NCBI GenBank assembly: GCA_002479245.1 | Contig: DLMG01000008.1 | Location: 9,202-21,812 of the forward strand | Direction of reading: 5' to 3' | DNA: 12,611 nucleotides | DNA from: Verrucomicrobia subdivision 3 bacterium UBA7542 | Lineage (GTDB): Bacteria; Verrucomicrobiota; Verrucomicrobiia; Limisphaerales; UBA11358 | In this document: piece after piece, positions 1-9,928 of the stretch | Layout of the letters: the number at the start of each line of letters is the position of its first letter | How positions within the stretch are numbered: position 1 is the first letter of the stretch | Translations under genes and position numbers: made by a program | The notes under the pieces: generated by a model | Seen by the model: only the letters and a program-made list of their open reading frames with translations | Databases searched by the model: none | What the model was told of the DNA's origin: nothing

Positions 1-6
1 CCCCAG

Positions 7-34
7 CCCTCTCCCCGCTCGGGCGGGGAGAGGG
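7..34. repeat. Perfect 12-bp hairpin (REP-like palindrome)
   Basis: Arms 7-18 (CCCTCTCCCCGC) and 23-34 (GCGGGGAGAGGG) are perfectly complementary around a TCGG loop. There is no T-run after it, so it is not a classical terminator. It sits directly before the ketosynthase-like gene. GC-only palindromes of this kind are common dispersed intergenic elements in GC-rich genomes; whether this one is repeated cannot be judged from one copy. Confidence 0.75.
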
Positions 35-45
35 AGTCGGCGACA

Positions 46-1197
46 GTGTTAAGTTGCGCCCAATCTCAAATCTCAGATTCCAGTCAGAGCCTCCTTGCGT
101 CGGCTGCTACAGTTGAAAACACTGAACCCATTTACATCACCGCGTGCGGCGTCGTTTCCGCAGCGGGCATTGGCGTGGAGGCTTTGGACCGCGTGCAGCG
201 AAACGGTAAATCGGTCCTGCGCCCCGTTGCCATTCCCGGACTTCCACCCATGCTGGCAGGGATGGTGGATGAGAAAGGAGTCGAAACATTTGACCGCCGG
301 CTGGACCTCCGGCACATGGATCGTTCGAGCCGCTGGGCGACAGTGGCGGCGCGTCTGGCAATCCGGGAAGCGGGATTTTCCGAGAGGCCGTCCGCACTGG
401 CGAAGCTGGGTCTGTTTCTGAATCTGTCCGCCGGGCCGTCTTGGGCGGAGTCGGAGTATCTGACTTCGTTCCTGTCGAACAACCGCCAGGTGACACAACT
501 GACGGCATTTCCCTACATCGTCCCCGGTTCCGTGGCGGGCAATGTGTGCCGCGCGCTTGGACTGGCAGGCCACAATCTCACTTTGAGTGTCGGGCCGGGT
601 GCGGGCCTGCTCGGCTTGGGACCGGCCATTGCCGCGCTGCGAACCGGTCATGCCGAGGCGCTTCTCAGCGGAGCAGTGGACGAATTATCCGAACGCATCT
701 TAACGGACCAGTTCATGGCCGGTCTGTCATCCGGTAAAGACGCTTTGCCGCCGGGCGAGGGAGCAGCAGTGCTGCTGCTGGAAACGGCGCGGCATGCCGC
801 TGCGCGCGGAGTGCGGCCCCTGGCGGAAGTGTGCGGCATGGCGTATGCGACGGAAGCGGACCGCTGCTGTCGCCCAAACCCGGATGAGCAAGGGTTGGTA
901 GAAATCGTGCGGGACGCGCTGAACCAGGCAGGTTTCGAACCGGCTGAGATCGGCGCGCTGTGCTTTCACGGACCGCGGCGGCGACTGGAGCAACTGCAGG
1001 CGCAGATGCATCCGACGTGGGCGGCGCGCGTGCTGACCGCATCACGACTCACCGGTTGCCTGGAAGGAACCCAACCTTTGCTGGATCTGGCCGTGGCATT
1101 GCGGTCACAGCCGGCTGGTTCGGGTAACCCGCCCGTGCTGGCGGTCGTTGCCTCGCCGCAGGGAACCGACTGTGCATTAGTGTTTAGAATGTATTGA
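46..1197 (+). CDS. Ketosynthase-fold protein lacking catalytic residues (FabF / chain-length-factor-like)
   Basis: A 383-residue protein with the thiolase fold of beta-ketoacyl-ACP synthases. The KS N-terminus is at about residue 28 (EPIYITACGVVSAAG), and PPGEGAAVLLLE (235-246) matches the conserved KS stretch. In condensing enzymes a Cys and two His attack and decarboxylate the acyl units. Here the Cys position aligns with Pro184 (SVGPGAG), the first His survives as His308 (FHGPRRR, not HGTGT), and the second aligns with Cys338 (RLTGCLEG). It is therefore probably not a condensing enzyme. It may act like a chain-length factor, pairing with an active KS that is not in this window, or as a scaffold. 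The start is GTG at 46; there is no clear ribosome-binding site and the frame stays open to base 1, so the true start could lie upstream. The ACP, FabG and FabD genes downstream support a role in acyl-chain synthesis. Confidence 0.82.
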   Translation: MLSCAQSQISDSSQSLLASAATVENTEPIYITACGVVSAAGIGVEALDRVQRNGKSVLRPVAIPGLPPMLAGMVDEKGVETFDRRLDLRHMDRSSRWATVAARLAIREAGFSERPSALAKLGLFLNLSAGPSWAESEYLTSFLSNNRQVTQLTAFPYIVPGSVAGNVCRALGLAGHNLTLSVGPGAGLLGLGPAIAALRTGHAEALLSGAVDELSERILTDQFMAGLSSGKDALPPGEGAAVLLLETARHAAARGVRPLAEVCGMAYATEADRCCRPNPDEQGLVEIVRDALNQAGFEPAEIGALCFHGPRRRLEQLQAQMHPTWAARVLTASRLTGCLEGTQPLLDLAVALRSQPAGSGNPPVLAVVASPQGTDCALVFRMY

Positions 1198-1239
1198 CGC
1201 GGAAACGACAATTTATTAGAAAAGCTCAAATCGGTTGCG

Positions 1240-1266
1240 ATGGCAGTCTCCCGGTGAGATTGCCGT
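1240..1266 (+). other. Intergenic hairpin after the KS-like gene
   Basis: GGCAGTCTC (1242-1250) pairs with GAGATTGCC (1256-1264) around CCGGT, with one G-U pair, and the stem extends to 1240/1266 through one more wobble. No T-run follows. It could be a 3'-end-stabilising or factor-dependent termination structure for the KS-like gene, or part of the leader of the next gene. Nothing else is visible in 1198-1359. Confidence 0.35.
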
Positions 1267-1359
1267 GGAAACTTAGAAGCATCAAACGAAGAGAATGGTA
1301 TGAATGGGCTGTTTCAAACCGCCTGAACCAAACAAACTGATCGGAATAGAAAGAAAACA

Positions 1360-2079
1360 ATGAAAACGATCCGTCTCGCATCTTGTGCAATCGCAGTCAT
1401 CGCCGGCATGGGCCTGTCATCGTCGGCCCGTGCCGAAGACGTGACGATTGCGGCGAATACCAACACTGTCGCCGGCATGGGCCCGTCATCGTCGGCCCAT
1501 GTCGAAGGCCGGTTTTATTTTCCGGTAGGCATTGCCTATTCCTCGGGCATTCACACTGCGACCGATAAACTATTTGATTTATACAAACAGGATGGTTTTG
1601 ACGTAACCAGGGTTGATATCCCGGTGGGACTGATCCTGAATCCCTATTACGAGTGGCAAACTTCCATTGGTGGCATTGGCGCGGGTGTGACTGTTGGTCC
1701 CACCATGTTTATTGTCGTGGACGAAAAAACGGACTACGGTTACGGATCCTCTGATAATGTGAAGTTTTCCTATGTGGTGCCGGTGGGTGCTTTTGTCCGT
1801 TACACCCCCTGGCCCAAGGCCACATTTGCGCCTTATGTGCGTGGCGGAGTTAAATATCCGTTTGCCGGTGGCGACAATCTTGAATCTTCTTCAGTCGGAG
1901 GTTTCGGGGCCGTGGGGGTTGAACTCTGGCGCACCAAGAAGGTGGGCATAAGCCTTGAGGTGGGGTACGATTCGTCTCAAATCAAAGTCAAATACACCGG
2001 GCAACACGATTTAAGCGGAACCTATTCAGACAAAGTGACCTGCCCGGGCTTCACCGTCGGCTTGTCGGTTGTTTTCTGA
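1360..2079 (+). CDS. Outer-membrane beta-barrel protein (OmpW/OMP_b-brl-like)
   Basis: A 239-residue protein with a Sec signal peptide (MKTIRLASCAIAVIAGMG, cleavage probably after SSARA near residue 25). Alternating hydrophobic/aromatic strands follow (for example FSYVVPVGAFVRYTPW and VGISLEVGYDS), and the last residue is Phe (GLSVVF), the usual outer-membrane barrel C-terminus. Size and layout fit a small eight-stranded barrel; the passenger or ligand is unknown. The signal-cleavage region is duplicated with a 69-bp period: GMGLSSSARAED recurs as GMGPSSSAHVEG, leaving a second copy of the cleavage-site motif 23 residues on. The start ATG at 1360 has only a weak AGAAAG-like upstream sequence. 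It is flanked by a 162-bp gap upstream and a strong terminator downstream, so it is probably its own transcription unit and not necessarily part of the acyl gene set. Confidence 0.8.
   Translation: MKTIRLASCAIAVIAGMGLSSSARAEDVTIAANTNTVAGMGPSSSAHVEGRFYFPVGIAYSSGIHTATDKLFDLYKQDGFDVTRVDIPVGLILNPYYEWQTSIGGIGAGVTVGPTMFIVVDEKTDYGYGSSDNVKFSYVVPVGAFVRYTPWPKATFAPYVRGGVKYPFAGGDNLESSSVGGFGAVGVELWRTKKVGISLEVGYDSSQIKVKYTGQHDLSGTYSDKVTCPGFTVGLSVVF
1401..1507 (+). repeat. In-gene direct duplication, 38-bp copies at 69-bp offset
   Basis: Bases 1401-1438 (CGCCGGCATGGGCC...) recur at 1470-1507 with three differences, at an offset of 69 bp (23 codons), so the frame is kept. The copies cover the end of the signal peptide and its cleavage site. 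The sequence between them encodes DVTIAANTNT. Confidence 0.9.
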
Positions 2080-2115
2080 TCCGGCCGGTTTTCATTTGCA
2101 GATACGGTTCCTATT

Positions 2116-2152
2116 CCCCGCCGCGAGTTCCTCCGTCGCGGCGGGGGTTTTT
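2116..2152 (+). terminator. Rho-independent terminator of the barrel gene
   Basis: Perfect 11-bp stem: CCCCGCCGCGA (2116-2126) with TCGCGGCGGGG (2136-2146), loop GTTCCTCCG, followed by G and five T. It lies 37 bp after the stop of the outer-membrane barrel gene and separates that gene from the ACP operon. Confidence 0.88.
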
Positions 2153-2183
2153 GTTGCCGGACACGGAGTTTCCCTCAAAATTG

Positions 2184-2212
2184 TTGTCACACCGGGCGAA
2201 CCCGGCAATAAT
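2184..2212 (+). promoter_or_regulatory. Candidate sigma70-type promoter of the ACP operon with palindrome in its spacer
   Basis: TTGTCA (2184-2189), 17-bp spacer, AATAAT (2207-2212): five of six consensus bases in each box. The expected transcript start is near 2219, about 30 nt before the ACP ATG. The spacer holds an inverted repeat CCGGG-cgaa-CCCGG (2192-2205), which could be an operator. This is a motif match only. Confidence 0.45.
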
Positions 2213-2250
2213 TCACCCGCTTTGAATTCAGAGCACTGTTCAACTTTTTT

Positions 2251-2571
2251 ATGTTATTGAAGCATGGCGTCACGGCGCCGGAACCGATAAGTCAGAGTAT
2301 CGCGCGGCGGGCGCCGGTGATCACGACCTTCAAGGAGGAGTTGATCCGAAGGTTGAACCTGCCTTTCACACCCGAAGATTTGCACGAGGACATTTCGCTG
2401 CTCGGCTCCGGGCTGGGGCTGGACTCGCTCGACGCGCTCGAAATCATCCTGTGCATCGAAAGCTGTTTCAAAATCAAAATCCCGGACGAGAATGTCGCCG
2501 TCTTGCGCTCCATCAACACCGTGGTGGACTTTGTCATTGAGCAGCAGGAGCGGAAAGGAGTGACCGCATGA
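2251..2571 (+). CDS. Acyl carrier protein
   Basis: 106 residues. The four-helix ACP core runs from about residue 24 (TFKEELIRRL) to the C-terminus. Ser59 in GLDSLDALEI is the phosphopantetheine attachment site, so this is a functional holo-ACP candidate that tethers acyl chains as thioesters in the cytoplasm. Typical ACPs have about 80 residues. The extra N-terminal 22 residues are either real or reflect a wrong start: GTG at 2317 would give a standard-length protein, and neither start has a good ribosome-binding site. The stop overlaps the next gene's start (ATGA at 2568-2571), indicating translational coupling with the GcvT-like protein. It differs in style from a housekeeping AcpP (LGLDSLDALEIILCIE instead of the usual DSLDTVEL-type helix), which suggests a specialised pathway ACP. 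Confidence 0.9.
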   Translation: MLLKHGVTAPEPISQSIARRAPVITTFKEELIRRLNLPFTPEDLHEDISLLGSGLGLDSLDALEIILCIESCFKIKIPDENVAVLRSINTVVDFVIEQQERKGVTA

Positions 2572-3677
2572 GGACTTCGCCACTGAAAGACAGGTTCGCC
2601 GACAAGGGCGCGATTTCGCGCGAACGCTACGGCGTGGAAGTCGTGGCGCGAGTGGCTGACAAACAAACCGAATGCCGTGCCGTGCGCGATGCCGTGGGGT
2701 TGACCGATTTTTCCTTCACCCGCAAATACCGCATCCTCGCGGAACAGGGACTGGATTTTCTCGACGGCTTGCTGGCTGGAAATGTCCCGAAAATTCGTTT
2801 TGGCCGCGTCCTCCACACGTTTCTGGCTGATGACGACGGCTTGTTGGTGGGGGACTGTTACGTGGCCAACAACGACGAGGAATTCATTCTGCTTTGCGAA
2901 AGCATCGTGCCGGACGGGGAGATTGACCGCGTGATGCAGGCCCACGGCGCTGCGGTGGCCGGCGTGGAAGACCTCACCACCAGCCACGTGTTGTTGAGCC
3001 TGGACGGTTTCAAAGCGTGGGAAATCGCAAAAGAGATTTTTGGGGCGGATGTTCTCGGACTGCCGTATCTGTCCATCGAAGTGTATCCGTTTCAGGACCA
3101 GTCCGTGCGCCTCTTTCGCGCGGGCAAGACTTCCGAATTCGGCTATCTGCTGCTCGTGCCGCAGGCGGTCGCGCCGGCCTTGTTCGACACGCTCGCCTCC
3201 GCCGTGGAAAAACACGGCGGCCAACTGTGCGGCGTGGACGCGCACGACGACCTGCGGCTGGAGGGACGCTTTTTCAATATTCACGCCGAGGGATTGCGCG
3301 TGCGCGACCCGCTGGTGCTGGGCCTGCAATGGATGATTGATTTCGACAAGGACAATTTTCGCGGCGGCGAGGCAATCAAGCGCCGCCGGGCCCAGGGGAT
3401 TCGGAGGAAGATTGTCGGCGTGGCCGCCGAGCACGGGTGCGACCAGCTCGTCACCGGCGCGCAAATCTTCCACGAGGGCCGGACCGTGGCCGAGGTGGTG
3501 GCGAATTGTCATTCGTTCGTTCTCGAGCAGCCGCTGGGGCTGGCCGTGTTTCCGGTGGAACTGGCTTATTCGGGTCTGTCGTTTCGTCTGGCGGCAGCCG
3601 ATGGCCCGACCGTGCGCACGATTTCCATGCCGCCCATCATGCCCAAAAGCCTGACGGTGAAACTCGACGAAATGTAA
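2568..3677 (+). CDS. GcvT-like folate-binding protein (aminomethyltransferase family)
   Basis: 369 residues, the normal length of a glycine-cleavage T-protein. Matches along the family pattern: VGLTDFSFTRKYRILAEQG (43-61, family DxSxxGK...), FLDGLLAGNVPKIRFGR (64-80), an acidic Asp96 in LLVGDCYVAN where the T-protein folate-contacting Asp sits, FGYLLLVP, DDLRLEGRFF, and the C-terminal barrel RRKIVGVAA to the end. T-proteins take the methylene group from a protein-bound aminomethyl unit onto tetrahydrofolate. None of the other glycine-cleavage genes is nearby, so glycine catabolism is unlikely. The start overlaps the ACP stop (ATGA) and follows a strong GGAAAGGAG site at 2552-2560, so it is made together with the ACP. 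A one-carbon or demethylation/aminomethyl reaction on an ACP-bound substrate is an inference. Confidence 0.85.
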   Translation: MRTSPLKDRFADKGAISRERYGVEVVARVADKQTECRAVRDAVGLTDFSFTRKYRILAEQGLDFLDGLLAGNVPKIRFGRVLHTFLADDDGLLVGDCYVANNDEEFILLCESIVPDGEIDRVMQAHGAAVAGVEDLTTSHVLLSLDGFKAWEIAKEIFGADVLGLPYLSIEVYPFQDQSVRLFRAGKTSEFGYLLLVPQAVAPALFDTLASAVEKHGGQLCGVDAHDDLRLEGRFFNIHAEGLRVRDPLVLGLQWMIDFDKDNFRGGEAIKRRRAQGIRRKIVGVAAEHGCDQLVTGAQIFHEGRTVAEVVANCHSFVLEQPLGLAVFPVELAYSGLSFRLAAADGPTVRTISMPPIMPKSLTVKLDEM

Positions 3678-3691
3678 GCCCGACCCGGCCT

Positions 3692-4138
3692 GTGTTGAAG
3701 TCATTGCCCCAATCCAAAGGCCGCCTGATCAAGCGCCGGCTGCCCATTCAGCCCGCTTTTCACGAGACGGACATGATGGGCGTCATTCACAATTCGGTTT
3801 ACTTCCTGTGGTTTGAGCAGGGGCGGTTGCAGATCATGCTCGAAGTGCTGCCCGTCGAGGAAGCCCTGGCACTCGGCGTGTTCATGCCGGTGGTGGAGAA
3901 CGTCTGCCATTACCGCAAGCCGGCGAAGTTCGGCCAGCCGCTGCTGCTTTACACGACGCATCACATTCAACCCGCCTACGAAGGCCGGCTGGTGTTCAGC
4001 CATTATCTGATTCACGAGAAACAGCGAACCGCGATGGCTTTCGGCCAGACCGCCATGACGATGGTGGACGCGCGGACCAATCGCTTGATCAAGGAATGGC
4101 CCGCGGCGGTGTGGAAAAAATATCAGGCGTTGAAATGA
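3692..4138 (+). CDS. Acyl-CoA/ACP thioesterase, hotdog fold (4HBT/YbgC-like)
   Basis: 148 residues from a GTG start 14 bp after the GcvT-like gene. The frame extends further upstream, but that part overlaps the previous gene and is not protein-like. The hallmark FHETDMMGVIHNSVYFLWFEQGR region (23-45) gives the YbgC-type catalytic Asp27, the GVIHN turn and the long hotdog helix; the strands around YTTHHIQPAYEG and AFGQTAMTMVD complete the fold. Such enzymes hydrolyse acyl-CoA or acyl-ACP thioesters in the cytoplasm and would release the chain built on the ACP. It is very likely co-transcribed with the ACP and GcvT-like genes. The exact start is uncertain: TTG at 3695 or 3704 is also possible. 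Confidence 0.85.
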   Translation: MLKSLPQSKGRLIKRRLPIQPAFHETDMMGVIHNSVYFLWFEQGRLQIMLEVLPVEEALALGVFMPVVENVCHYRKPAKFGQPLLLYTTHHIQPAYEGRLVFSHYLIHEKQRTAMAFGQTAMTMVDARTNRLIKEWPAAVWKKYQALK

Positions 4139-4162
4139 ATCAAACCCGGCTTCCGAAGTTGA

Positions 4163-4315
4163 AACCGCGGATGACGCGGATGACGCGGATAAACCAGAAC
4201 TTGGAGGCGAAACCGGCCGGATGAGTCCGAAGCCCTCGCCATAAATGGAACCCATTATCATCCGTGAAATCCGTGAAATCCGCGGTTCTTATTCCGGTTT
4301 TCGGGCTTAATTCTA
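4163..4315. repeat. Palindromic 9-bp-periodic repeat, copy A (degenerate)
   Basis: The left end 4163-4190 is AACCGCGGAT followed by two copies of GACGCGGAT. The right end is two copies of ATCCGTGAA and then ATCCGCGGTT (to 4287). Downstream sequence (TTCTTATTCCGG, TTTTCGGG) is shared with copy B. It fills most of the 225-bp gap between the thioesterase and ketoreductase genes. Confidence 0.85.
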
Positions 4316-4363
4316 AATTTGAGCCTCGTCACCTCGGCTCCTACGAAATAGACTTTCAAAATT

Positions 4364-5107
4364 ATGAGCCGCGAATTTGAAGGCCGCGTGGTGGTTGTCA
4401 CGGGAGGTTCCCGCGGGATTGGCCGCGCCATCGTCGAACGGTTCGCCGCACAGGGCGCGCGCGTTTTCTTCACCTACCACCAGAACGAGAAAGCCGCGGC
4501 GGAGGTGACGGCCGCCTGCCAGGCCGAAGCCATCCAGTGTTCGCAAACGGACGCCGCTGCCATTGACGCCGCCGTGGCCCGCGTACTGGCCGCCGCCGGC
4601 AAAATTGACGTGCTCGTCAACAACGCCGGCATCACCTGTGACACCTTCCTCATGCTCATGCCGCCGGAGGATTGGAACCGCGTGATCGACACCAACCTCA
4701 ACGGCGCCTTCCGTTGGTGCAAGGCAGTGACCCGTCCGATGCTCGGCGCCCGGCGCGGTGTTATCATCAACATCGCGTCCATTGCCGGCCTCGTCGGCGT
4801 AATGGGACAGACAAATTACGCCGCGTCAAAAGGCGCCCTGCTGGCGTTCACCCGCGCGCTGGCGGCAGAACTCGGCACCAAAGGCATCCGCGTCAACTCC
4901 GTCGTGCCCGGCTTTATCGAAACCGACATGTCGGCCCGTGTGCCACGCCAGATCAAGCAGAAAAACCTCGAGCACATCGTGCTCAAACGCTTCGGCCAGC
5001 CGGCGGAAATTGCGTCGGTCGTCACCTTCCTCGCCTCCGACGCCGCCTCTTACATCATGGGCCAGTCCATCGTCGTGGACGGCGGTTTGACCGCGACCGC
5101 CGCCTGA
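4364..5107 (+). CDS. fabG: 3-oxoacyl-ACP reductase (FabG-type SDR)
   Basis: 247 residues, the usual FabG length. Rossmann SDR with TGGSRGIG (13-20) for NADP(H) binding, NNAG (86-89), and the catalytic tetrad Asn111, Ser139 (NIASIAG), Tyr152 and Lys156 (YAASK). The C-terminal SDR motif is GQSIVVDGG (233-241). It would reduce the 3-keto group of an ACP-bound acyl chain. The start is ATG at 4364; no strong ribosome-binding site is seen. The gene lies between an ACP/thioesterase group and a FabD, 225 bp after the former across a repeat and 13 bp before the latter. FabG symbols are often shared by paralogues with other substrates; in this setting a pathway-specific ketoreductase is as likely as the housekeeping one. 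Confidence 0.9.
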
Positions 5108-5120
5108 GTTTGGTTTACCG

Positions 5121-6086
5121 ATGAATGTCTTTCTCTTTCCCGGCCAAGGCTCGCAGGAAGTCGGCATGGGCGCGGACCTGTTCAAATCCGACCCGGCCTT
5201 TCGCGCACTCGTCGAGCACGCGAGCCAGTGTGTGGGTGAAAACCTCGAACCCATCTGCCTGCGCGGCCCTGAGAAAACACTCGTGCGGACAAAGTTTCTC
5301 CAACCGCTGCTGGTCGCCGTGTCCCTGGGCTACTGCCGGCGACTCATCGAACGTGGCGTCAAGCCGGACGTGGTGTTGGGTCATTCCCTCGGCGAGATAA
5401 CCGCCCTTGCGGCTGCGGGCGTCGTGACATTTGAAGACGCCATTGAGATTGCAACCCAGCGGGGCAAACTCATGGAACAAGCGTCCACTCAAGTGCAAGG
5501 CGGCATGATGGCGGTCATCACCCCGGATCGGGAACGGATTCTCGGTTGGCTCGCGAAAGAAGTTCCCGACCACGGCGCAATCCTCGCCAATGACAATGCC
5601 CCAACCCAAATTGTGTTGTCGGGCGACCGCGCCTGCCTGGAACAATGTGCAACTTTTATCACCCACGAACAACTTGGCCGATGTCGTTCGCTGACGGTTG
5701 TCGGGCCGTGGCACAGTCCGGCGATGGCAGAGGCGCGGCGGGAATTTGAAGCCTGGCTCGGCCCGGTGGAATTCCGCGCCCCGCAGGTGCCGCTGCTGTT
5801 CAACGTCACCGCCACTGCTGAAACCGATCCCGGAAAAGTCCGGCAGTTGGTCGCGCGGAACCTGGTCGAGCCTGTCCGCTGGCGCTCGTGCATGGAGCAA
5901 TTGCGGGCCGCCGGGGCCACCACGCTTTTTGAGATCGGTCCCGGACGGGTGTTGTCCGGCCTGGCGCGGGCAAACGGTTTCGGCGACGAAACCCGCATCG
6001 GCAACGTCAACAACCTGCGCGGGGTTGAGTTGGCCGCCGGAAAAAATTTAACCGCGGATGACGCGGATAACACGGATAAGAAATGA
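5121..6086 (+). CDS. fabD: Malonyl-CoA:ACP acyltransferase (FabD-type)
   Basis: 321 residues. FPGQGSQ (6-12), GHSLGE (87-92) with nucleophile Ser89, Arg114 in QRGKLM (carboxylate contact of malonyl units), and His198 in VGPWHSPAM give the complete acyltransferase active site. It would load malonyl units from CoA onto the ACP. The usual AFHS-type specificity motif reads PWHS here, so the unit transferred may differ from plain malonyl; this is inference. The start is 13 bp after fabG and the two are probably co-transcribed. The natural protein seems to end near residue 308: the last 11 residues (TADDADNTDKK) and the stop codon are written by repeat copy B, so the C-terminus has been replaced or extended by an insertion. 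Confidence 0.92.
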   Translation: MNVFLFPGQGSQEVGMGADLFKSDPAFRALVEHASQCVGENLEPICLRGPEKTLVRTKFLQPLLVAVSLGYCRRLIERGVKPDVVLGHSLGEITALAAAGVVTFEDAIEIATQRGKLMEQASTQVQGGMMAVITPDRERILGWLAKEVPDHGAILANDNAPTQIVLSGDRACLEQCATFITHEQLGRCRSLTVVGPWHSPAMAEARREFEAWLGPVEFRAPQVPLLFNVTATAETDPGKVRQLVARNLVEPVRWRSCMEQLRAAGATTLFEIGPGRVLSGLARANGFGDETRIGNVNNLRGVELAAGKNLTADDADNTDKK

Positions 6087-6150
6087 ATCTTAAAATTTTC
6101 TCTCCCACTCCGCGTCATCCGCGGTTCTTATTTCAGTTTTCGGGTTCAAT
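6050..6150. repeat. Palindromic 9-bp-periodic repeat, copy B
   Basis: Core 6050-6126: the left end AACCGCGGATGACGCGGAT is an inverted copy of the right end, with 18 bp perfectly matching (TCCGCGTCATCCGCGGTT). The core differs from copy D by a single base over about 77 bp. Sequence to about 6150 is shared with copy A. The left end codes for the last residues of the FabD protein. Confidence 0.92.
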
Positions 6151-6272
6151 GCAGAGACGCAGGCCGTAAGCGCGGGGGCGTTCCCGCCGGCCGCGTTTCA
6201 GCAACCCGCCGCCAAAAATTCCCGACAATTCCCATCTTTGCAACCGCCGTGTTCGCCGTTATTCTCGCCCCC
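6151..6272. other. Intergenic stretch without a recognised gene
   Basis: Part of the 339-bp gap between the FabD-type gene and the GxxExxY gene. Apart from repeat copies B and C and the small frame at 6273, it contains GC-rich sequence (GCGGGGGCGTTCCCGCC) and no recognisable gene, RNA or convincing promoter. Confidence 0.5.
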
Positions 6273-6383
6273 ATGCCGACGCTGGAAAGCAACGCAACGC
6301 AACCCTGGCTCATTTTGAACAAGGTGCGCACCGGAAAACTTTTGACCGCGGATTACGCGGATAACACGGATGGGAAAAGATGA
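6273..6383 (+). pseudogene. Short frame truncated by repeat copy C (probable gene remnant)
   Basis: A 36-codon frame from ATG at 6273. The first 24 residues (MPTLESNATQPWLILNKVRT and on) look like a normal protein N-terminus. The rest, TADYADNTDGKR, is encoded by repeat copy C, which also supplies the stop. This suggests the 5' end of a gene cut off by the repeat. The family is not recognised, and it could also be chance. Confidence 0.35.
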
Positions 6384-6413
6384 ATATCAGCGCCATCCGC
6401 GTAATCCGCGGTT
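6345..6413. repeat. Palindromic 9-bp-periodic repeat, copy C
   Basis: ACCGCGGATTACGCGGATAA at the left and ATCCGCGTAATCCGCGGTT at the right are inverted copies. Both ends carry the same T/A change from the GACGCGGAT unit (TACGCGGAT and its complement), so the two arms co-vary and the palindrome is maintained. Confidence 0.92.
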
Positions 6414-6425
6414 GATCTCTTTTTT

Positions 6426-6836
6426 ATGCTCCACGAAGAAATATCCAGGGACATCATCGGTGCGGCGATGGCAGTGTTGAACGAACTCAAGCCGGGTTTG
6501 GATGAGAAGCTTTACGAAAACGCGCTGGTCATTGAGTTGCGGGCGCGCGGGCACACGGTCGAACAACAGCGTGAGTATCCGGTTCACTATCGCGGCCAGT
6601 TCATCGGCAAGCTGATTCCCGACCTGATCGTGGACGGTAAAGTCATCACCGATTCCAAAGTGGTGACCGCTTTCAACGACACCCATGTCGCGCAGATGAT
6701 CGGTTACCTGAACATCACCGGCCTGCAAGTGGCGCTGCTCCTGAACTTCAAAGAATTCAAGCTCGATTGGAAACGGGTGGTGAACGAACGCAGAAATAGA
6801 ACCGCGGATGACGCGGATAACACGGATAAGAAATGA
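6426..6836 (+). CDS. GxxExxY protein (PD-(D/E)XK nuclease-like)
   Basis: 136 residues. The name-giving GLDEKLY (Gly24, Glu27, Tyr30) follows an N-terminal helix that begins with the family's EISRDIIGAAMAVLNEL pattern. The core has IPDLIVDGKVITDSK, giving Asp66 and Asp76-x-Lys78 in the place of the D...(D/E)xK nuclease motif, and the closing YLNITGLQVALLLNF strand is typical. The family is small, frequent in Verrucomicrobiota and Bacteroidota, and of unproven function; a nuclease role is inferred from the fold. The C-terminal tail TADDADNTDKK and the stop lie in repeat copy D. It is convergent with the VapC gene. A near-identical copy of its last 118 bp is found at 7840-7957. Confidence 0.88.
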   Translation: MLHEEISRDIIGAAMAVLNELKPGLDEKLYENALVIELRARGHTVEQQREYPVHYRGQFIGKLIPDLIVDGKVITDSKVVTAFNDTHVAQMIGYLNITGLQVALLLNFKEFKLDWKRVVNERRNRTADDADNTDKK

Positions 6837-6876
6837 ATCTTAAAATTTTCTCTCCCCCTCCGCGTCATCCGCGGTT
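6800..6876. repeat. Palindromic 9-bp-periodic repeat, copy D
   Basis: Inverted ends AACCGCGGATGACGCGGAT and TCCGCGTCATCCGCGGTT. It is one base different from copy B. It separates the convergent GxxExxY and VapC genes: the former stops inside it and the latter stops at its right edge (6876-6878). A long hairpin could form in RNA of either strand and may block read-through, but there is no T-run. Confidence 0.92.
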
Positions 6877-7337
6877 CAACTCCGGCCTGACTTAAACAAC
6901 CGGGTTTTTAGTCCGGCATCGCGCGCAAGTTTTGCCTGCGCCGCGTCACAAGTCCAGAATTCATCAATCCCGGAAAGCAGATTCAACCGCCGCGCCGCCG
7001 CCACGTGCAGATAATCACCGCTTCCGCAAACAATGCCTCTGGCCTTTTCCGTGCTTAACTCCTCCGCCGCGTCCAACATTTTGTCCGCCGTCAGTTCGTC
7101 CTGCCAGCGCAGCCGGGCCGCCGTCTTTTCCGACGCCCGCAATGCCTGCCATGCCACTTCTCCATCGGCGTCGGTTCTGGCCATCCGAAGGTTGTGTCTT
7201 AGTTCGTAACGCAACCACGGCCAATACACAAAATCCGGCAAGTCTTTTTGAACCGCCGCGTCCACCACGACGGAAAATTCATCGTTCGGGTGAAGATAAG
7301 CAAACAGCGCCGAACTATCGGCGTAAACGAGCGGCAT
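6876..7337 (-). CDS. vapC: PIN-domain toxin (VapC-type)
   Basis: 153 residues from ATG at 7337. PIN-domain acidic residues are visible: Asp7 (YADSSALFAYL), Glu45 (RYEL), Asp108 (GSGDYLHVAAA) and Asp131 (TCDAAQ). VapC toxins are Mg-dependent RNases that cut tRNA or rRNA and are held inactive by their antitoxin. The AAAGGAG site 12-18 bp upstream and the 23-bp overlap with the antitoxin's 3' end settle the start and imply coupled translation; a longer frame to 7442 lies inside the antitoxin gene and is less likely. The stop is at the border of repeat copy D. Confidence 0.88.
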   Translation of the reverse strand: MPLVYADSSALFAYLHPNDEFSVVVDAAVQKDLPDFVYWPWLRYELRHNLRMARTDADGEVAWQALRASEKTAARLRWQDELTADKMLDAAEELSTEKARGIVCGSGDYLHVAAARRLNLLSGIDEFWTCDAAQAKLARDAGLKTRLFKSGRS

Positions 7338-7575
7338 AATTTCGTTTTCTCCTTTCGGCCAGGATCGGATTCGGACGTGTCGGGCCGCCCTTCGCCCGCG
7401 CTTTTCTGACGTCGGCCATGATTTCATCCCAGGACGGATCAATCTCCTCGTTGGCGGGCACCAACAAGGCGTCCGCCGTGCCGTTCCGCAACACCCGGAA
7501 CCGTTGCCCCCGCTTCACCGAGTCCAATACCGATCCGGTTTGCTCATGCAGTTCCTTGGAAGTAATCTCAGTCAT
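7315..7575 (-). CDS. Phd/YefM-type antitoxin
   Basis: 86 residues from ATG at 7575. The N-terminus MTEITSKELHEQTGSVLDSV followed by KRGQRFRVLRNG and ALLVP is the DNA-binding Phd/YefM fold. The C-terminal half (DPSWDEIMADVRKARAKGG and a basic tail) would wrap the toxin. It precedes and overlaps vapC on the minus strand, the usual antitoxin-first order. No ribosome-binding site is seen before the ATG. A palindrome 10 bp upstream is a likely autoregulatory operator. A longer frame to 7683 exists, but its extra residues are not family-like. Confidence 0.87.
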   Translation of the reverse strand: MTEITSKELHEQTGSVLDSVKRGQRFRVLRNGTADALLVPANEEIDPSWDEIMADVRKARAKGGPTRPNPILAERRKRNYAARLRR

Positions 7576-7579
7576 AAAG

Positions 7580-7610
7580 CGAATAGACACCAAAACGGTG
7601 TCGCCGTCAA
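7580..7610 (-). promoter_or_regulatory. Candidate promoter/operator of the toxin-antitoxin pair
   Basis: The inverted repeat GACACC-AAAAC-GGTGTC (7586-7602) lies 10 bp from the antitoxin ATG. On the minus strand it sits between TTGACG (7610-7605) and TATTCG (7585-7580), with a long 19-bp spacer. If this is the promoter, transcription would start at about the ATG, which would suit the absent ribosome-binding site. Palindrome seen; function inferred. Confidence 0.45.
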
Positions 7611-7710
7611 GCCGTGTCTGGACGTTTGGTCGGACGGAAGTTTGAACAGAATTTGTTGGCAACTTACCCGGACGACTCCCCAAAACCCCGTTTTTTGGGC
7701 GTGTTCCGTG

Positions 7711-7836
7711 TCATTTCTTGAGTGGTGGATTGGAGTCGGTCACCGGATTTCTCCGGGTCTCCGGACCATAGGACTCGACCTTGCCATCGACGAGGCGAAC
7801 AAAATAATAGCTGTATCGAACCTGAAAAAACCGCAT
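7711..7836 (-). pseudogene. 41-residue protein-like fragment, unrecognised
   Basis: The minus-strand frame from ATG 7836 to TGA 7711 encodes MRFFQVRYSYYFVRLVDGKV and on to ETRRNPVTDSNPPLKK. Composition and hydrophobic pattern look like genuine coding sequence, but the family is not recognised. Immediately upstream (from 7840) is the duplicated GxxExxY fragment, whose junction lies four bases from this ATG, so the frame may be the 3' remnant of a longer gene whose 5' part was replaced. No ribosome-binding site is seen. It could also be an intact small protein. Confidence 0.4.
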
Positions 7837-7839
7837 CCA

Positions 7840-7955
7840 GCCTGCAAGTGGCGCTGCTCCTGAACTTCAAAGAATTCAAGCTTGATTGGAAACGAGTGGT
7901 GAACGAACGCAGAAATAGAACCGCGGATGACGCGGATAACACGGATAAGAAATGA
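7840..7955 (+). pseudogene. Duplicated 3' fragment of the GxxExxY gene
   Basis: Bases 7840-7957 repeat 6721-6838 at a constant offset of 1119 bp with two differences (7882 C to T, and one G to A in the codon for Arg/Val region). The copy encodes residues 100-136 of the GxxExxY protein, including the TADDADNTDKK tail and stop. It has no start of its own; upstream sequence is unrelated. This is a truncated second copy rather than a functional gene. Confidence 0.92.
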
Positions 7956-8004
7956 ATTCCAGAATATCTTTCCCCCCATCCGCGCCATCCGCGTCACCCG
8001 CGGT
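7919..8004. repeat. Palindromic 9-bp-periodic repeat, copy E
   Basis: The left end AACCGCGGATGACGCGGAT is identical to copies B and D. The right end is more diverged (ATCCGCGCCATCCGCGTCAC then CCGCGGT), with an extra 9-bp unit. The centre differs from B and D after base 7957. Confidence 0.88.
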
Positions 8005-8104: not shown

Positions 8105-9928
8105 ATGAAACCGGAAGCCGCCGGCAAACAACGCGGAACCAAGTCGGGGCGCGCCCCCAAAATTGCGCGCCTGGCGCCGGTGGTTTGCGCCGGACCGGAG
8201 GCCAACGGAAGCGGGCCGGCCGGTAATGGCAACGGCAGCGGCCGGCTGGTCATGCGAATGGCCACTGAGCGCGACCGCGAAACCATTTACCGCCTGCGGC
8301 ACGAGGTTTACGCGCACGAACTGGGGCAGTATTCCCCCAATACCACGGGGCGGCTCACCGATTCGCTCGATGCCTTCAACCATTACATCGTCGCCGCCGA
8401 CGGCGACCGGATCGTGGGATTTGTTTCCATCACGCCGCCGGGCGGGCCGGGCTATTCCGTGGACAAATATTTCAAGCGCGAGGAACTGCCGTTTCCCGTG
8501 GACGACAAACTCTACGAGATCCGCCTGCTCACGGTGCCGCAGGCCTCCCGGCGCAGTCTGCTGGCCTCGGCGCTCATGTATGCCGCATTTCGCTGGATCG
8601 AGGCGCGCGGCGGCACACGCATCGTGGCCATCGGCCGCAAGGAAATCCGCAACATCCATCTCCGGGTCGGACTCAAGCCCACCGGCCAGGATGTGCAGTC
8701 CGGCGCCGTCACCTATGGCCTGCTCCATGGAACCATGGCCGACATCCATGCCGCCCTGCCCGGCGTCCGCCCGATCCTCGACCGGGTTTGCACGGAAATG
8801 TCGTGGCAGATTGGCGTGGCGTATGACACCCCCGGCGCTTGCTACCATGGCGGAAAATTTTTTGAAGCCGTCGGCGATGAATTTCAAACGCTCGAACGGC
8901 TGGATTCAGTCATCAATGCCGACGTGCTGGACGCGTGGTTCCCGCCATCGCCCAGGGCCGTCGCGGCGATTGAGCAACACCTGCCGCAAATCCTGCGCAC
9001 CTCGCCGCCGACGGGCTGCGAAGGATTGATCCGGACCATCGCGCGCGTGCGCGGCGTGCGACCGGAGTGCATTCTGCCCGGCGCCGGTTCCTCCGACCTG
9101 ATCTTCATGGCGTTGCGCCACTGGCTGACGGCGTCGTCGCGGGTGTTGATTCTCGATCCGAGTTACGGGGAATATGCGCATGTGCTGGAGCACGTGGTTG
9201 GCTGCCGCGTCGAACGGCTGCCGCTGCCGCGCGGCGAGCAATACCGCCTCGATCCGGGCCGCCTGGAGTTGAGCCTGGCCGGCGAATACGATCTCGTCGT
9301 GGTGGTCAATCCGAACAGTCCGACGGGCCAGCATGTGCCGCGTGAAGAACTGGAGGAAGTTTTGCGCAAGGCGCCTCCGGCCACGCGCGTATGGGTGGAT
9401 GAAACCTACGTGGACTACGCCGGCACGGGCCAGTCGCTCGAACCGTTCGCCGCGCGGTCGGAAAACGTGGTTGTTTGCAAATCCATGTCCAAGGTTTATG
9501 CGTTGAGCGGCGCGCGGGTGGCGTATCTGTGCGCCGGGCCGCATCAACTGGAATCGTTGCGTCCGCTCACCCCGCCGTGGGCCGTGAGCCTGCCGGCCCA
9601 GATCGCGGCGGTGAAAGCGCTCGAAGATCCCGGTTACTACGCCGCGAAATACGAGGAGACGCACGCCTTGCGGCGGCAACTGATTGAGGCGCTCAAGCCG
9701 TTGAACTGGGAGATCATTCCCGGCGTCACGAATTTTGTCCTGTGCCACCTGCCGGAGAACGGCCCGGATGCCGACACCGTGATTGCCCGCTGCCGCGAGC
9801 GCGGCTTGTTCCTGCGCAACGTGGCCACGATGGGAACGAGCTTTGGCAACCGCGCGCTCCGGATTGCGGTGAAGGATGCCGTGACCAACCGGCGGATGGT
9901 GGAGATCCTGCGGGAAGTAGCAGGCTGA
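8105..9928 (+). CDS. LuxI/FeeM-like acyltransferase fused to PLP-dependent aminotransferase-like enzyme
   Basis: 607 residues in three parts. Residues 1-48 are a Gly/Ala-rich linker-like start (the ATG at 8105 is kept because the frame is coding-like from there; ATG 8252 is an alternative). Residues 49-236 are a GNAT-fold domain resembling N-acyl-amino-acid synthase/autoinducer synthase (YRLRHEVYAHELGQY, 62-76; YEIRLLTVPQASRRS, 137-151), a group that takes acyl chains from acyl-ACP. Residues about 270-607 are a fold-type I PLP enzyme close to histidinol-phosphate aminotransferase/threonine-phosphate decarboxylase: PGAGSSD, NPNSPTG (402-408), Asp432 (WVDETY), Schiff-base Lys463 (KSMSKVYALSGAR) and Arg471. 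The joint ACYHGGKFFEAVGDEF (245-260) is unusual. It may couple making or modifying an amine or amino acid with N-acylation; substrate unknown. The ACP/FabD/FabG set 2 kb upstream could supply the acyl donor. Confidence 0.82.
   Translation: MKPEAAGKQRGTKSGRAPKIARLAPVVCAGPEANGSGPAGNGNGSGRLVMRMATERDRETIYRLRHEVYAHELGQYSPNTTGRLTDSLDAFNHYIVAADGDRIVGFVSITPPGGPGYSVDKYFKREELPFPVDDKLYEIRLLTVPQASRRSLLASALMYAAFRWIEARGGTRIVAIGRKEIRNIHLRVGLKPTGQDVQSGAVTYGLLHGTMADIHAALPGVRPILDRVCTEMSWQIGVAYDTPGACYHGGKFFEAVGDEFQTLERLDSVINADVLDAWFPPSPRAVAAIEQHLPQILRTSPPTGCEGLIRTIARVRGVRPECILPGAGSSDLIFMALRHWLTASSRVLILDPSYGEYAHVLEHVVGCRVERLPLPRGEQYRLDPGRLELSLAGEYDLVVVVNPNSPTGQHVPREELEEVLRKAPPATRVWVDETYVDYAGTGQSLEPFAARSENVVVCKSMSKVYALSGARVAYLCAGPHQLESLRPLTPPWAVSLPAQIAAVKALEDPGYYAAKYEETHALRRQLIEALKPLNWEIIPGVTNFVLCHLPENGPDADTVIARCRERGLFLRNVATMGTSFGNRALRIAVKDAVTNRRMVEILREVAG

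Follow-up and report, generated by a model that had tools for sequence, protein, structure and literature searches.

Why would an acyl carrier protein (ACP) be paired with a homologue of GcvT, the T-protein of the glycine cleavage system, in a gene set whose ketosynthase (KS) lacks its catalytic Cys? The question is raised by a 12,611-nucleotide stretch of DNA from Verrucomicrobia subdivision 3 bacterium UBA7542 (GCA_002479245.1), here called the window, which covers bases 9202–21812 of contig C38 (DLMG01000008.1) in a 4.4-Mb genome of 428 contigs that is 69.8% complete. An initial annotation, made from the sequence alone, had named six genes on one strand, for a KS-fold protein, an ACP, a GcvT-like protein, a hotdog thioesterase, FabG, and FabD, and all six are found in that order on the + strand. 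We find that they belong to a real, widespread, and, as far as we searched, undescribed variant of the type II fatty-acid/polyketide clusters, and that this gene set is divided by the window edge, leaving only its second half in the window.

The ACP and the T-protein homologue form a conserved unit. The gene of the dedicated ACP (2251–2571, + strand), whose phosphopantetheine Ser is residue 59 as read from its GLGLDSLDALE motif, ends in an ATGA overlap with the start of the gene of the GcvT-like enzyme (2568–3677, +), as expected from the translational coupling that had been proposed. We compared the window's locus with 57 public loci fetched by the patterns GKT[SG]EFGY or L[VP]LGLQWM (L013 and L111 lie on the same contig as L044, and L013 was left out of these 58-locus counts; L011 is the other half of the window's contig and was not counted as a locus; three extra genomes may overlap with the public loci). 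An ACP stands directly upstream of the GcvT-like gene in 55 of the 58 loci, the window's included: in all 54 with at least 400 bases upstream and in the shorter L071, the remaining three (L080, L085, and L088) beginning inside the GcvT-like gene. The 4-base overlap recurs in 37 of these 55 loci, and in L096 the two genes are fused into one open frame of 443 codons. A G[LM]xLDSxD motif is kept by all 55 GcvT-coupled ACPs, and the longer signature HED..LG.GLGLDSLD is common to 39 of them. By comparison, none of 29 other GcvT-type control loci (flanks of about 1.4 kb, one locus shorter) has an ACP, a contrast that goes beyond chance. The initial annotation had made its proposal depend on conservation of the pair in relatives, which is what these loci display.

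The coupled GcvT-like proteins also stand apart as a subfamily: in a quick tree, their 56 rows form one group, separated from the 29 control rows on one branch with an SH-aLRT value of 100. These rows come from Myxococcota (20), Verrucomicrobiota (13), Fibrobacterota (12), Lentisphaerota, Omnitrophota, and Planctomycetota (2 each), and Kiritimatiellota, Acidobacteriota, and Pseudomonadota (1 each), with no phylum given for a further 2, so that the pair recurs in nine named phyla. Within Verrucomicrobiota it is rare. Among 387 sampled genomes of Verrucomicrobiota (the window's included), a search with the GcvT-like protein and one with a three-domain synthase described below returned the same 4 genomes, from four families, although in two of the 4 the synthase match covers its KS part and the partner of that KS only. 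Among 59 closer relatives, again including the window genome, the GcvT-like family is present only in the window genome and in a second genome of the same genus (826.9 and 526.4 bits, against 70.5 for the next match). The set is scattered, accessory, and sparsely distributed, and transfer between phyla seems likely.

What of the ketosynthase? The KS-like open reading frame (ORF) was called at 46–1197, but its frame is open to base 1, so that translation may begin upstream of the GTG at 46, and the domain spans 1–1197 (+). Relative to FabF, the catalytic Cys is replaced by Pro and the second His by Cys, the first His being retained (P-H-C), in agreement with the initial report of a KS fold without its Cys. 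Judged by these residues, the domain is a catalytically dead, chain-length-factor-type (CLF) partner of an active KS. The initial annotation saw no competent condensing enzyme and proposed extending the contig upstream to look for one; there, just before base 1 (C38:7789 onward), lies an active KS with a full C-H-H triad (VTACSASTA around the Cys), separated from the CLF domain by an unread stretch. Further upstream, a 1251-residue protein combines a B12-type radical-SAM domain, an active KS, and a CLF, giving two active KS domains upstream on the contig. The condensing enzyme had been cut off by the window edge and is not missing, and the combination that marks a KS–CLF type II synthase, an active C-H-H KS with a KS-fold partner lacking the Cys, is present.

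The same architecture is found in the relatives, where a single ORF often encodes both KS and CLF: 19 pairs are fused to a radical-SAM domain, and 19 further ORFs have a second KS-type stretch of at least 250 residues. The radical-SAM fusion occurs in 20 of the 58 loci, the window's contig included. Where both domains of such a fused pair reach 250 residues, C-H-H is found in 19/19 first domains and the Cys is lacking from 19/19 second domains (the triad table excludes shorter KS matches, among them the fused KS of L077). In ORFs lacking the radical-SAM domain, the first of two KS-type domains is C-H-H in 23/24; for the CLF partners there, Cys is seen in none of 8 of the 19 triads, and two (such as that of L042) look misaligned. 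Such ORFs with at least two KS-type stretches number 35, some of them representing one broken-up domain. At E ≤ 1e-20, a protein search with the radical-SAM part retrieved 230 matches. Among the 120 matches listed, 117 are 1244–1302 residues long, all carry a KS domain, and only generic names appear among them. Candidates were limited to 0.55–1.75 times the query length, a range in which stand-alone radical-SAM relatives could not appear. Separately, a second, stand-alone B12-binding radical-SAM gene lies near the cluster at L058:18114–19571, and L049 and L066 have a stand-alone radical-SAM match too.

The remaining window genes would contribute to an acyl-building pathway. The hotdog thioesterase (3692–4138, +; 4HBT_2, YbgC/FadM-like, 46.0 bits against a cut-off of 25.5) occurs in 21 of the 51 loci (counting the window's) whose downstream sequence is long enough. 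The FabG-type 3-ketoacyl-ACP reductase (4364–5107, +), which scores 229.9 against a cut-off of 340 with the NCBIfam model of the flexirubin reductase FlxB, recurs in 39 of the 51, and the FabD-type malonyl-ACP transacylase (5121–6086, +; TIGR00128, 259.3 bits, just below the cut-off of 260.9) in 29. To these we add a gene that the initial annotation did not name and that belongs to the set, coding for a FeeM-like GNAT N-acyltransferase fused to a PLP aminotransferase/CobD-like domain (8105–9928, +). It is present on the window's contig and in 4 of the 57 other loci (L043, L044, L050, and L051), where it directly follows FabD.

A dehydratase, also reported as lacking, is found on another contig of the same genome, C181, where the genes of a C45/AAT-type acyltransferase, an LPLAT acyltransferase, the set's FabZ-like dehydratase, and an FMN-reductase-like/SCP2 protein follow one another. 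In relatives, parts of this module lie near the ACP/GcvT pair: among 41 loci that extend 4.5 kb or more downstream, counted anywhere in the fetched locus and mostly on the other strand, the dehydratase occurs in 23, the LPLAT in 17, and the reductase in 13. A single Omnitrophota locus (L053) unites in about 9 kb the radical-SAM–KS–CLF protein, ACP, GcvT, 4HBT, FabG, FabD, SCP2-reductase, and dehydratase. The apparent lack of condensing enzyme and dehydratase is thus due to the window edge and to contig breaks, and with an active KS upstream and the dehydratase on C181, we rejected a "dead" or incomplete pathway.

Could the set simply be the genome's ordinary fatty-acid synthesis genes? FabD, FabG, and ACP are common to ordinary synthesis, and the window's FabD and FabG score near the models for it. 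However, the genome has a separate housekeeping acpP–fabF pair on contig C296, a second FabD fragment on C407, and a further FabA/FabZ-family gene on C370, and the set is confined to the 4 of 387 sampled genomes of the phylum. We regard a housekeeping identity as having next to no probability and rejected it on the strength of the acpP–fabF pair and the rarity in the phylum. The view that this is not the housekeeping fab set is thus confirmed, and these are not the genome's only essential fab genes. Contigs C155 and C209 of the same genome hold a KS gene (1042-residue open frame) and a carrier-protein gene (1094-residue open frame), which perhaps belong to other biosynthetic sets.

We then asked what the GcvT-like protein retains of its ancestry. 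It has the T-protein fold over its whole length, with the catalytic Asp and the Glu of the RxGxTxE motif, both retained in the family, and a DxLRxE motif, and in glycine cleavage, too, the substrate is carrier-bound, on the H-protein. Unlike that system, its partner is an ACP and not a lipoyl H-protein, a Tyr/Asn/Tyr pocket has become His/Glu/Lys, and the protein falls far below the GcvT cut-offs of NCBIfam (118.5 against 300 and 95.5 against 235.85). The model of the dimethylsulfoniopropionate demethylase DmdA gives 39.9 against 410. The window's GcvT-like sequence contains no KGCYxGQ, which we take to be the signature of YgfZ and IBA57. A role as an Fe-S helper of the YgfZ/IBA57 kind, serving the radical-SAM domain of the cluster, is judged very unlikely.

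The explanation we favor, at somewhat below even confidence, is a type II cluster in which the GcvT-like protein acts on the ACP as T-protein acts on H-protein. In the order of steps we propose, two KS–CLF pairs, one fused behind the B12-type radical-SAM domain, would extend a chain on one dedicated ACP; FabD would supply, FabG reduce, and the FabA/FabZ-like enzyme dehydrate it. Because the genes scanned included no enoyl reductase (a search aimed at one was not made), the product would likely be unsaturated, as a polyene or in another form. Coupled to the ACP in translation, the GcvT-like protein would dock on that carrier as T-protein does on H-protein and would probably move a one-carbon unit between tetrahydrofolate and an ACP-bound substrate, for which a starter, an alpha-carbon, or a pantetheine-linked intermediate are candidates. 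The radical-SAM domain may modify the same carrier-bound chain, which the hotdog thioesterase and the acyltransferases could release or attach to a lipid or amine. More tentatively still, the ACP may replace the lipoyl H-protein as the swinging arm, the coupled GcvT adding a folate one-carbon unit to an acyl intermediate bound to pantetheine or removing one from it, which together with the radical-SAM–KS–CLF fusion would define a widespread, undescribed class of lipid/polyene synthesis.

Several observations weigh against this explanation. Where 6 kb or more of upstream sequence was available (42 loci), KS matches were counted in 36, that of L050 being doubtful, and were not found in the other 6; the radical-SAM domain is absent from 21 of the 42 and is therefore not a constant partner; 4HBT and FabD are missing from many loci, and the tree tool warned of long branches meeting between the groups. 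In the wider 56-member set, Asp96 is kept in 49 but is Glu in 6 and Ala in 1 (invariance of the two fetch motifs in this set is biased by the way in which the loci were fetched). The pocket itself bears most directly on folate. In residue counts over 121 members, based on the closest 120 of 634 protein hits and free of the fetch-pattern bias, three residues that we take to have a role in folate binding are exchanged in 120–121 of 121: Tyr83 to His, Asn112 to Glu, and Tyr188 to Lys (T. maritima numbering, read from the alignment). Glu at the 112 position also occurs in 7 other GcvT-fold paralogues. The three exchanges may mean altered or lost folate chemistry.

It is a possibility, though a somewhat unlikely one, that the GcvT-like protein works independently of folate on the chain carried by the ACP, through a new site formed by His83, Glu111, and Lys187 in family alignment numbering (as an isomerase, hydrolase, decarboxylase, or chain-gating scaffold, for example). 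His83 and Glu111 are present in 121/121 members and Lys187 in 120/121, and two further Cys are near-invariant (C97 in 120 and C110 in 119), whereas the 22 "true GcvT" control rows, sorted by Asn at column 111 and so having that Asn by definition, carry Tyr at 83 and 187; the other 7 control rows have Glu at column 111. Against such a site stand the whole T-protein-like fold and its framework, with Asp96, Glu190, and Arg230 kept in 121/121 and Glu232 in 115/121. With fold, catalytic Asp, and motif Glu kept but three pocket residues exchanged, folate one-carbon chemistry appears plausible only.

A further reading takes the set as a ladderane or polyunsaturated-hydrocarbon (PUHC) type pathway, as proposed for Kuenenia and Desulfotalea, with GcvT as an accessory. 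In the available part of the source (PMC2649909), those clusters, described in 2009 and the closest published system found, have ACPs, a B12 radical SAM protein, and multiple FabF paralogues whose active sites are altered, and our radical-SAM domain matches TIGR04072, "rSAM_ladder_B12". Yet that match, at 49.7 bits, is far under the cut-off of 360, TIGR04013 scores higher, and the domain, a distant relative at best, is here fused to KS–CLF; the words "glycine" and "aminomethyl" are absent from the main text of PMC2649909, as far as available, and the radical-SAM domain is itself inconstant among our loci. We consider this reading improbable.

Other known systems share parts of the set. Aryl polyene and flexirubin clusters likewise have a KS–CLF pair, ACP, FabG-like reductase, FabA-like dehydratase, hotdog, and acyltransferases, and MMPL, a further likeness, is found in 9 of the 41 loci here; unlike them, our set has the GcvT-like protein and the radical-SAM fusion. 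No aromatic-starter enzymes were seen among the part of the neighbor ORFs that was scanned, and the ApeI model gives 16.9 against a cut-off of 28.5 with one dehydratase (L043), that of the window genome having been scanned against NCBIfam only. The B12 radical-SAM enzymes CysS and TokK, whose PDB entries hold pantetheinylated substrates, are fold relatives of the radical-SAM domain, which differs in its fusion to KS–CLF. With 29 against 27 bits, the GNAT domain of the gene at 8105 lies above the FeeM cut-off of Pfam (PF21926) but, unlike the N-acyl amino acid synthase FeeM, is fused to an aminotransferase-like domain. The sponge swf cluster, with a B12 radical SAM gene and "aminomethyltransferase" ORFs nearby, was rejected as the same system, being a type I polyketide synthase (PKS) with those ORFs outside its operon in the available part of PMC3908369, and celluxanthenes were set aside as products of an iterative type I PKS (PMC12144888, likewise available in part). 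We found no description of such a cluster in the open-access literature, most subscription papers lying outside this scope, in line with the initial annotation, which expected a little-described step.

Some features of the region lie outside this scheme. Between the KS-like gene and the ACP is a gene unnamed in the initial annotation, for an outer-membrane beta-barrel-like protein (1360–2079, +; OMP_b-brl_2, 20.7 bits, below the cut-off of 27); in L054 and other relatives the ACP directly follows the CLF, so that this gene may be an insertion particular to the window genome. A 39-base stretch close to its 5′ end is nearly duplicated (92%; 1400–1507). On the − strand between FabD and the GNAT–aminotransferase gene (6426–7977) is a weak match to a Phd/YefM-like antitoxin (18.4 against 29.8 bits), with a neighbor that had no Pfam hit and that we take to be PIN-like. 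The two are flanked by a 141-base direct repeat (6718–6858 and 7837–7977, 91%) that covers the 3′ end of a GxxExxY gene. A dispersed palindromic repeat, CCGCGGATGACGCGGATNACACGGAT, has 6 matches with at most 3 mismatches at 4165–8003 (mean 0.00 in shuffles) and extends over the final codons of both FabD and the GxxExxY gene; its exact core has 3 copies in the genome, all on the window's contig. An ISL3-family transposase gene lies upstream of the gene set on this contig (L010:566–1819).

If the explanation we favor is true, folate one-carbon chemistry would be linked to the building of carrier-bound chains, and the gene set offers a small number of genes for expression and testing.
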